Source of the DNA: an uncultured Clostridia bacterium
Lineage (GTDB): Bacteria; Bacillota; Clostridia; Saccharofermentanales; Saccharofermentanaceae
Direction of reading: 5' to 3'
DNA length: 14,141 nucleotides
NCBI GenBank assembly: GCA_946405115.1
Contig: CAMJGB010000021.1
Span: forward strand, 1-14,141
Under the pieces are notes generated by a model. It had not been told where the DNA came from and ran no database searches. It saw nothing but the letters and a program-made list of their open reading frames with translations. A program made the translations under genes and the position numbers. Below are positions 11,070 to 12,403 of this stretch, in pieces (position 1 is the stretch's first letter; every line of letters begins with the position of its first letter).

Positions 11070-11082
11070 CTTCGATATTATA
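11067..11082 (-). promoter_or_regulatory. -10 element placing transcription start on the amidohydrolase ATG
   Basis: A perfect TATAAT (11082-11077, minus strand) is separated from the ATG by only ATCGAAG. A start 7-8 bases after the -10 falls on the A of the ATG, giving a leaderless message, which agrees with the absence of a Shine-Dalgarno. The -35 is poor: TTCACA (11108-11103) would need a 20-base spacer. Confidence 0.55.
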
Positions 11083-11116
11083 CCCCATGAGCAAAGACAA
11101 GTTGTGAAATTTCCTG

Positions 11117-11146
11117 TTGCAAAGCCCGAAAGGTTAGGTTTATAAT
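11117..11146 (+). promoter_or_regulatory. pheA leader promoter
   Basis: -35 TTGCAA (11117-11122), an 18-base spacer and a perfect -10 TATAAT (11141-11146). The next seven bases are CCCACCC and then the leader ATG at 11154. The first well-placed purine is the A of the ATG or the A at 11150, so the leader mRNA has essentially no 5' UTR. Confidence 0.75.
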
Positions 11147-11153
11147 CCCACCC

Positions 11154-11222
11154 ATGAACAGAAAGTCATTTACAAGCTTTGATTTCTTTTTTGGATTTGG
11201 ATTTTTTACGAGGTCCGAATAA
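11154..11222 (+). CDS. Phenylalanine-rich leader peptide of the pheA attenuator
   Basis: This short frame encodes 22 residues, 8 of them Phe, at positions 6, 9, 11, 12, 13, 15, 17 and 18; the core reads FDFFFGFGFF. It lies between a good promoter and an intrinsic terminator in front of pheA, the classic place for an attenuation leader such as enterobacterial PheL. Seven of the eight Phe codons are TTT, whereas pheA itself uses TTC for 19 of 20. There is no Shine-Dalgarno; the ATG lies 7 bases after the -10, so initiation on a leaderless mRNA is likely. A ribosome stalled at the last Phe codons (11202-11207) would cover RNA to about 11220 and leave the antiterminator arm (from 11222) free. A ribosome reaching the stop would cover that arm. 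The peptide is probably a sensor only. Confidence 0.88.
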   Translation: MNRKSFTSFDFFFGFGFFTRSE

Positions 11223-11288
11223 GTTTTCACTGCAAAGAATGTGACGTTCATAAACAAGATTGAATTAACAAGCCCTGCAGTGAAAGCT
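11222..11288 (+). promoter_or_regulatory. Antiterminator stem of the pheA attenuator
   Basis: AGTTTTCACTGCA (11222-11234) pairs with TGCAGTGAAAGCT (11276-11288) over 13 consecutive positions, with one G-U pair and a 41-base loop. The 3' arm overlaps the 5' arm, the loop and the first bases of the 3' arm of the terminator, so the two structures exclude each other. The 5' arm begins on the last base of the leader stop codon. A weaker protector pairing, ATGAAC/GTTCAT (11154-11159 with 11246-11251), is possible. Confidence 0.82.
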
Positions 11289-11305
11289 GCGGGGCTTTCT
11301 TAATT
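11270..11305 (+). terminator. Intrinsic terminator of the pheA attenuator
   Basis: AAGCCCTGCAG (11270-11280) pairs with CTGCGGGGCTT (11287-11297): an 11-base stem with one G-U pair and a TGAAAG loop. It is followed by TCTTAATTA, a moderately U-rich tail. It ends 22 bases before pheA and 9 bases before its GGAGG, so it must be read through for pheA expression. Confidence 0.85.
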
Positions 11306-11326
11306 ACAAAAACGGAGGACAACACT

Positions 11327-12403
11327 ATGACACCAGAACAACTCGACAAACAGATCGCGGAACTCGTATCACAGAGAATCGCCATGGATGCACCAAGAGA
11401 TTACGAGAGACACTTCGTCTACGCATTGAACAACGAGAACGATGCAACCATGACTACTCTCGAGAAAACCTTGTTCCGCACATTGTACGGGCTGTCCCAC
11501 TCATATACATCGGCACATACACCGAACGCTTCCGTTCTCGACAAGACGATCAAGAACGCGCTTGAGAACACACCAAACACCTTCCCCGATACAGCTTTCG
11601 TAGCATGCCAGGGCATCGAGGGTGCATATTCGCAGATTGCATGTGACAAGCTTTTCGCTAATGCCGACATCATGTACTTCAGAACATTCGACGGTGTGTT
11701 CCAGGCAGTAGAAGCAGGCCTTTGCAAGTACGGCGTGCTTCCCATCGAGAACTCATCCTACGGTTCCGTAACGCAGGTGTACGACCTCATGAAGTCGCAC
11801 AAGTTCCACATCGTCCGCGCGATGAAGCTTCAGATCTCACACCGCCTCCTCGCAAAGCCCGGCGTTAAGTTCGAAGACATCACCGAGGTTTACTCACACT
11901 CACAGGCAATCGGCCAGTGCAGTGCATTCCTCCGCGACAACAAGAACATCAAGGTAAACATCGTAGCCAACACCGCAGTAGCAGCACAGATGGTAAAGGA
12001 CAGCGACAGAACAGATATCGCTGCCATCTCTTCCCCCGACTGCGCATTGCTCTACGGACTTGATGTAATTAGGAACGACATTCAGAATTCAGACCACAAC
12101 TACACAAGATTCATCGTCATCTGCAAGGATCTCGAGATCTATCCCGGCGCCGACAAGGCTTCCATCATGATCTCATTGGGACACACTCCGGGTTCGCTCT
12201 CGGACCTGCTCTCAAGATTCTCAGCACTTGGTCTTAACTTAACAAAACTTGAATCACGTCCTATCGTAGGGCGCGACTTCGAATTCATGTTCTACCTCGA
12301 CGTCCAGGCGTCGGTCTACTCGGAGGAGTTCATTAATCTTTTGTGTCAGTTTGACAGTGAGCCTAACGAATTCACGTTCTTAGGCTCGTATAAGGAGTCT
12401 TAA
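11327..12403 (+). CDS. pheA: Prephenate dehydratase with chorismate mutase-like N-domain and ACT domain
   Basis: The 358-residue protein makes phenylpyruvate from prephenate in phenylalanine synthesis. Residues 1-85 occupy the place of an AroQ chorismate mutase domain but look degenerate: LDKQIAELVSQR survives, while the usual upstream Arg and the Lys after the first helix are not evident. The dehydratase domain (about 89-265) has QGIEGAYSQIA, FDGVFQAVEAGLCKYGVLPIENSSYGSV in two parts, and the catalytic N-Y-T-R-F (258-262). The ACT domain (277-355) has GSLSDLLSRF, LNLTKLESRP with the E-S-R-P motif (309-312), implying allosteric inhibition by phenylalanine. The ATG has GGAGG at 8 bases. The leader attenuator upstream adds control by charged tRNA-Phe. 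The stop overlaps the convergent glycosyltransferase stop by 4 bases. Confidence 0.95.
   Translation: MTPEQLDKQIAELVSQRIAMDAPRDYERHFVYALNNENDATMTTLEKTLFRTLYGLSHSYTSAHTPNASVLDKTIKNALENTPNTFPDTAFVACQGIEGAYSQIACDKLFANADIMYFRTFDGVFQAVEAGLCKYGVLPIENSSYGSVTQVYDLMKSHKFHIVRAMKLQISHRLLAKPGVKFEDITEVYSHSQAIGQCSAFLRDNKNIKVNIVANTAVAAQMVKDSDRTDIAAISSPDCALLYGLDVIRNDIQNSDHNYTRFIVICKDLEIYPGADKASIMISLGHTPGSLSDLLSRFSALGLNLTKLESRPIVGRDFEFMFYLDVQASVYSEEFINLLCQFDSEPNEFTFLGSYKES

Follow-up and report, generated by a model that had tools for sequence, protein, structure and literature searches.

The window analysed here, a 14,141-nt stretch of DNA from an uncultured Clostridia bacterium, carries on its forward strand a pheA-type gene (11327..12403) whose 358-aa product combines a prephenate dehydratase domain (PF00800, E 3.7e-58) with a sub-threshold ACT match (PF01842, 21.6 bits against a cut-off of 27). 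The best NCBIfam model, PRK11898.1, scores 206.9 bits, just under its cut-off of 219. The first ~90 residues (window 11327-11600) match no Pfam family; in bifunctional relatives this N-terminal stretch holds chorismate mutase, and here it is possibly a degenerate domain. Prephenate dehydratase is a step of phenylalanine synthesis. By eye, a Shine-Dalgarno sequence, GGAGG, precedes the gene at 11314..11318.

Upstream on the same strand we recover the promoter, the leader and the antiterminator that a first-pass annotation of this DNA had claimed. A promoter consensus scan places a sigma-70-type promoter here, with a -35 element, TTGCAA, at 11117..11122 and, after an 18-nt spacer, a -10 element, TATAAT, at 11141..11146; the scan returned one site against 1.4 expected in shuffles and taken alone is no evidence. 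The open reading frame at 11154..11222 translates to a leader of 22 residues, eight of them Phe (MNRKSFTSFDFFFGFGFFTRSE, then a stop codon). The A of its ATG, at 11154, lies 7 nt past the -10 box and is the predicted transcription start of what would be a leaderless mRNA. When 11073-11326 was shuffled 20,000 times by mononucleotides, no ATG frame of 12-35 codons with at least 8 Phe arose. Judged by its prephenate dehydratase domain and the textbook place of that enzyme, the gene behind the attenuator makes the very amino acid in which the leader codons are rich.

Beyond the leader, the RNA offers overlapping hairpins. Segment 2, the 5' arm of the antiterminator (11222..11234), begins on the last base of the leader stop codon, at +2 from the first base of the stop, and forms 13 pairs with segment 3, the 3' arm (11276..11288), which overlaps an intrinsic terminator at 11270..11297. 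The overlapping terminator stem had been claimed as well, with 11 bases; it is present and has 12 pairs around a GAAA loop. Its U-rich tail (TTTCTTAATT, 11295..11302) is short and interrupted, which leaves the U tract weak. Segment 1, a protector strand within the leader codons (11154..11182), pairs in the no-ribosome fold with stretches of 11226-11251. This is the plan of classic attenuators, with 1:2, 2:3 and 3:4 pairing. The RNA from 11154 to 11305 folds at -48.4 kcal/mol, compared with -28.8 (sd 3.0) for shuffles (z -6.5), and 0 of 200 shuffles were as stable. No Rfam family, the T-box (RF00230) included, reached its cut-off anywhere in the window.

We also folded the window RNA with a ribosome at successive positions, assuming that it covers 13 nt counted from the first base in its A site. 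With the last terminator arm still unmade, an A site at codon 13, 15, 17 or 18 gave the antiterminator at -24.4 kcal/mol, and one at codon 11 gave the antiterminator plus an extra hairpin at -31.4 kcal/mol. Values of -10.7 and -5.4 kcal/mol were obtained at codon 22 and at the stop, after which the terminator follows (-24.9). Once the last arm was present, the lowest-energy fold was the antiterminator at codons 13, 15 and 17 and the terminator at codons 11 and 18. Free RNA starting at 11219 gave -26.1 kcal/mol for the terminator and -24.4 kcal/mol for the antiterminator. Because these two energies are close and the last-arm folds are mixed, the outcome would depend on folding order, and in known attenuators it is indeed the order of folding that sets the outcome. 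The earlier proposal that stalling at Phe 17-18 frees the antiterminator holds before the last arm is made; with that arm in place it holds at codon 17 and fails at codon 18. A ribosome at the stop, which had been proposed to cover the antiterminator arm, does leave a fold in which the antiterminator cannot form and the terminator does.

Conservation and covariation across the genus

The genus, which includes named Saccharofermentans MAGs (Clostridia), was examined in 85 genomes, 77 of which gave a pheA relative with an E-value no worse than 1e-60. We read 74 pheA upstream regions (28 + 46), having left out L028 (contig end inside pheA) and L030 (from another family of the order); G099 and G107 carry no DNA upstream of pheA. 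A Phe-rich leader with 5-10 Phe stands at 63 of the 74 loci, with 11 lacking one, which rules out chance and answers the suggestion, made with the window alone in view, that relatives be checked for such a frame. The leaders fall into group A (22-30 codons; 24 leaders, the window's among them) and group B, whose 39 leaders have 17-21 codons and usually a single Trp. A terminator with an overlapping antiterminator of 6-15 pairs was present in 63 of 63, as found by a best-helix search that has no null of its own. In 50 of the 63 leaders, again including the window's, the antiterminator arm starts between -1 and +15 nt from the first base of the stop, and in 13 leaders of 27-30 codons the frame passes through that arm and the stop lies beyond it. 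The -10 box reads TATAAT in 61 of the 63 and TAAAAT in 2, and the relatives' -35 hexamers match TTGACA at 3-5 of 6 positions, 16-18 nt from the -10 box.

Beyond this set, we scanned GTDB species genomes using the aligned pheA proteins of the genus and kept 80 loci, of which the best come from MAGs that bear the label Saccharofermentans, Clostridiales, Ruminococcaceae or Clostridia, many of them from ruminants. Sixteen of the 80 carry a Phe-rich leader, at 59-87% pheA identity; upstream DNA is missing at L061 and scant at L079. Frames at L042, L071, L088, L096, L103 and L104 in this set were taken as spurious, that at L042 by eye. A covariance model, R1, found leaders in 65 of 83 genus genomes (in G026 only through the glmS copy described below); weak R1 matches at L267 (G098) and L268 (G105) resemble plain terminators by eye and were rejected. 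Among 148 genomes of the order, R1 matched 43, all in this genus, one of 30 genera; the filters were strict and the model itself derives from this genus, which makes absence elsewhere soft; many genomes are also incomplete, which softens the absences further. In a pheA tree of 40 rows, with several forks open and L030 on a very long branch, the leader-less L027, L042 and L046 fall among the rows that bear leaders, next to group B (98/99 support), a placement that suggests loss of the leader in these three.

Compensatory changes, the other feature that the first-pass annotation had proposed to seek in relatives, are also seen. We compared 62 distinct leaders (the 63 minus L183, whose leader is identical to that of L017), with L029, L172, L174 and L175 standing outside the four groups used for consensus folds; the covariation and permutation statistics carry no correction for relatedness. 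The clearest case is the group A terminator (24 leaders), in which 97.5% of cells are paired, 11 of 12 pairs are altered on both sides and the covariation score is 0.609 against 0.359 for shuffles (0/500); further pair types there were not above shuffles (227/500). The group A antiterminator is paired in 86.3% of cells against 83.6% shuffled (3/500) and scores 0.199 against 0.158 (4/500), with both-side pair changes that do not beat the control (131/500); L172, L174 and L175 are misaligned here and were retained, so they count against it. Within the group B antiterminator the outer helix is 100% paired, with both-side changes in two of nine pairs, and the inner helix is 84.1% paired, shows no both-side change and is unsupported. 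The group B terminator is nearly invariant and hence uninformative (101/500 on all measures).

Consensus folds brought out an extra helix, the protector (1:2), formed between leader codons and the antiterminator region. In group B it is 95.3% paired and scores 0.129 against 0.075 (0/500), with both-side changes that again do not beat the control (47/500). Across the 62 leaders a protector strand pairs with its own partner at -12.78 kcal/mol, compared with -9.90 for permuted partners, beating all 5,000 permutations, and each group separately does the same (A, -10.95 against -8.25; B, -13.93 against -12.58 kcal/mol); in group B the own partner is better than the row mean in only 15 of 38 leaders. 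The corresponding tests for antiterminator and terminator gave 0/5,000 each and are biased, since those arms were picked by their own pairing. Changes at codon positions 1, 2 and 3 number 680, 775 and 1404 in group A (20 of 24 rows, the four with gaps left out) and 1316, 1445 and 1987 in group B (38 rows); they are mostly non-synonymous and the codon-position signal is modest. Taken together, the covariation supports the terminator, the antiterminator and the protector helix. Parts, geometry, conservation and covariation can thus be read directly from the sequence and from its comparison among relatives.

The start of the leader and a model of attenuation

Several features of the 63 leaders bear on where their mRNA begins. 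The -10 box is separated from the leader ATG by 6 nt in 37, 7 in 22, 8 in 3 and 9 in 1, so that 59 of 63 fall at 6-7 nt. The start codon therefore sits at the expected transcription start, which leaves no room for a 5' UTR, and a Shine-Dalgarno site would not fit before it. The base 5' of the ATG is C in 57, T in 6 and never a purine, which makes the A of the ATG the natural purine start. From this geometry we conclude that the leader is very probably leaderless. The leader search required a -10-like box; among the 11 loci failing it, no Phe-rich frame of other geometry turned up, save a Phe-containing frame at L180 that was rejected by eye. At three loci with no leader (L167, L197 and L198) pheA's own ATG stands, by eye, 7 nt past a TATAAT, the arrangement expected if a deletion had removed the attenuator and left pheA itself leaderless.

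The same arrangement may be common across the genus. In five genomes (G000, G001, G005, G012 and G017), TATAATN6-8ATG occurs 613 times against 353 for the reversed pattern; with N12-14 the figures are 456 and 363. G005 holds 120 TATAATN6-8ATG sites, of which 100 were examined and 52 have a pyrimidine before the ATG; 50 of these 52 (51 stretches) were scored, both L237 sites lying outside the range. Of the scored sites, 26 of 50 head frames that stay open over the stretch's at least 146 codons, some of which may start at internal ATGs; by eye, long frames here are response regulator-, SDR- and NUDIX-like. A terminator-like hairpin follows four scored sites (L212, L220, L235 and L252), and the full attenuator layout appears at L252, the pheA leader, only. 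At L220 a 16-codon frame just past the -10 box is followed by such a hairpin, possibly a further attenuator or chance. In Firmicutes, leaderless genes are predicted in 56 of 209 genomes, at 4.2 (2.4-16.6), which we take as percent of genes, in the available text of one survey (PMC3160421), and only 15 potentially leaderless genes appear in what is available of a clostridial start-site map, that of C. difficile (PMC7438776).

We consider it highly probable that the locus is a ribosome-mediated attenuator that senses phenylalanine supply and controls pheA, with its leader peptide made from a leaderless mRNA. Attenuation by the ribosome at Phe codons had been claimed at the outset and is supported by both the comparison of relatives and the ribosome-position folds; the protector helix, the leaderless start and the glmS copy were all absent from that first account. 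Transcription would start at the A of the leader AUG or right beside it, and a start there means that the ribosome loads on a bare 5' end. If no ribosome loaded, segment 1 would pair with segment 2 and the terminator would form. With Phe-tRNA plentiful, a ribosome reaching the stop would cover segment 2, again leading to the terminator. With Phe-tRNA short, the ribosome would stall on Phe codons beyond segment 1 and free segment 2, which could then pair with segment 3 and let RNA polymerase continue into pheA. We infer the start site, leaderless initiation, stalling and read-through in this scheme. It raises the question of how ribosomes could load on an AUG at a bare 5' end quickly enough to keep up with RNA polymerase.

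Other readings keep part of this scheme. The attenuator could be real and its leader not leaderless, with transcription starting further upstream, still without a Shine-Dalgarno site, or with the -10 box a chance match. The -35 hexamers are only fair (3-5/6), the leader start is a prediction and shuffles give as many promoter-like sites; we nevertheless regard this as unlikely, given that all 63 leaders retain the -10 box and its spacing, that a pyrimidine precedes every ATG and that TATAATN6-8ATG is enriched in the genus (613 against 353, though the N12-14 spacing also gives 456 against 363). A different doubt concerns what the peptide does: it might act as a nascent chain or in trans, rather than as a counter of Phe codons, much as the S. 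meliloti trpL peptide, whose RNA is also leaderless, acts in trans according to the available text (PMC7298713). The conserved residues at codons 6-9 (FTS, FTG or FTW) would fit such an effector, but those codons lie within protector segment 1, which can explain their conservation, and the other residues vary while Phe stays frequent, so we think this very improbable. To the idea that a protein, a T-box-like tRNA contact or Rho, and not a translating ribosome, switches the stems, we attach the least weight of all. T-boxes do occur in the genus, but no Rfam family reached its cut-off in the window, and the RNA ahead of segment 2 is occupied by the Phe-rich frame.

A related leader at glmS and comparison with known attenuators

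Model R1 produced a second match in nine genomes (G094, G088, G026, G002, G009, G070, G029, G103 and G018; loci L258-L266), where a leader ATG lies 161-169 nt upstream of the glmS ATG in all nine. The gene was identified as glmS by TIGR01135 at 757 bits for L260, the sole locus tested. The leader peptide, MK[IM]IWFISY[AE]YAL..., contains Trp and Tyr; in 9 of 9 the order TAAAAT, 6 nt and ATG after a C makes it leaderless again by geometry. It aligns over its full length with four group B pheA leaders, and model R2, built on the glmS leader, recovers these nine at E < 1e-30; its remaining matches are mostly pheA leaders. The sequences make its homology to the pheA leader clear. With a ribosome at codon 11 and the last arm unmade, all nine form the antiterminator (-16.4 to -25.5 kcal/mol), and with a ribosome at the stop the free RNA holds -2.4 to -6.9 kcal/mol. 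Pairs are kept in 99.3% of cells against 97.9% shuffled; covariation is weak (score 0.199 against 0.176, 5/500).

In 28 of 30 other genus genomes a glmS match was obtained (14 at 70-86% identity, 14 at 41-45%), with no such leader upstream either by script (up to 330 nt) or by eye (over 240 nt in the first 14 and 120 nt in the others; 134 nt in total at L285). The glmS ribozyme is present in 12 of 83 genus genomes and in 0 of the nine leader genomes. The two do not overlap, yet 62 of 83 genomes have neither, and a direct replacement of the ribozyme by the leader is not shown. Nine of the 12 ribozyme genomes have no R1 leader match. In 39 genus genomes, a Trp version of the layout (TATAATN{6,8}ATGN{0,30}TGGTGG) occurred 10 times, in 10 genomes, and its reversed control 7 times. 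By the look of the matched strings, our sole criterion, none was leader-like, and all were rejected as chance.

On balance we favour, with some reserve, the view that the leaderless attenuator is a copyable and recodable module, duplicated from pheA to glmS in a sub-clade, where codons that include Trp and Tyr took the place of its Phe codons, and there placing amino-sugar synthesis under the control of the ribosome. The leader likely regulates glmS; what it senses could be Tyr, aromatic amino acids generally or the nascent peptide itself. Tyr is repeated closely in its conserved core, a lead and no more. If the proposal is true, an attenuator has moved to another pathway, that of cell-wall amino sugars, with its sensing codons changed, and one genus holds the original and the recoded attenuator side by side.

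The remark of the first-pass annotation that Firmicutes usually control amino-acid genes with T-boxes is partly borne out: all 39 genus genomes searched do have T-box matches (35 of 39 above the cut-off), while pheA here uses a leader peptide. Nine of the ten best T-box loci lie before frames that are leuA-like by eye (L141 confirmed) and one before tyrS (L150, confirmed). With T-boxes at leuA-like genes and tyrS and the leader at pheA, the two types of control coexist in the genus.

Among the closest known systems is the pheA attenuator of enterobacteria, pheL, which likewise sets a Phe-rich leader, an antiterminator and a terminator ahead of pheA. Enterobacterial leaders have a Shine-Dalgarno site, for which there is no room here, and the window scores 18.7 bits against the cut-off of 55 for the Rfam family Phe_leader (RF01859; E 0.72), no match at the level of the family. 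The likeness looks convergent. Two other leader peptides have a leaderless start as well and belong to other lineages, amino acids and genes: one of the actinobacterium Corynebacterium glutamicum, with Val, Leu and Ile codons, and one of the alphaproteobacterium Sinorhizobium meliloti, for Trp. As far as the available text of the two sources goes, ilvL of C. glutamicum ilvBNC has no ribosome binding site and a transcription start 1 nt from its start codon (PMC11857589), and the 5' end of the S. meliloti attenuator RNA is the trpL ATG itself (PMC7298713). Classic attenuators in Actinobacteria have been described, again on partial text (PMC1262725).

Within Firmicutes, leader peptides of amino-acid genes are represented, in the available parts of the sources, by predicted His attenuators in the Bacillus cereus group, Eubacteriales and Erysipelotrichales (PMC9413887), a Leu-rich leader in the S. 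aureus ilv attenuator (PMC5794164) and a His leader ahead of bacillar hisS paralogues (PMC2965389). These differ from ours in amino acid and gene, and those parts do not mention a leaderless start. Our literature search, with most subscription papers and all bioRxiv preprints outside its scope, found nothing joining Saccharofermentans with a leader peptide, and among the matches listed no title concerns either an attenuator of pheA in Clostridia or a leader peptide at glmS. What is known or predicted already, then, is leader-peptide attenuators in Firmicutes (His, predicted in other Clostridia too, and branched-chain) and leaderless ones in Corynebacterium and Sinorhizobium; to these, the locus described here would add phenylalanine and pheA among the leader-peptide attenuators of Clostridia, and a probable leaderless attenuator that dozens of species share and whose RNA visibly covaries.
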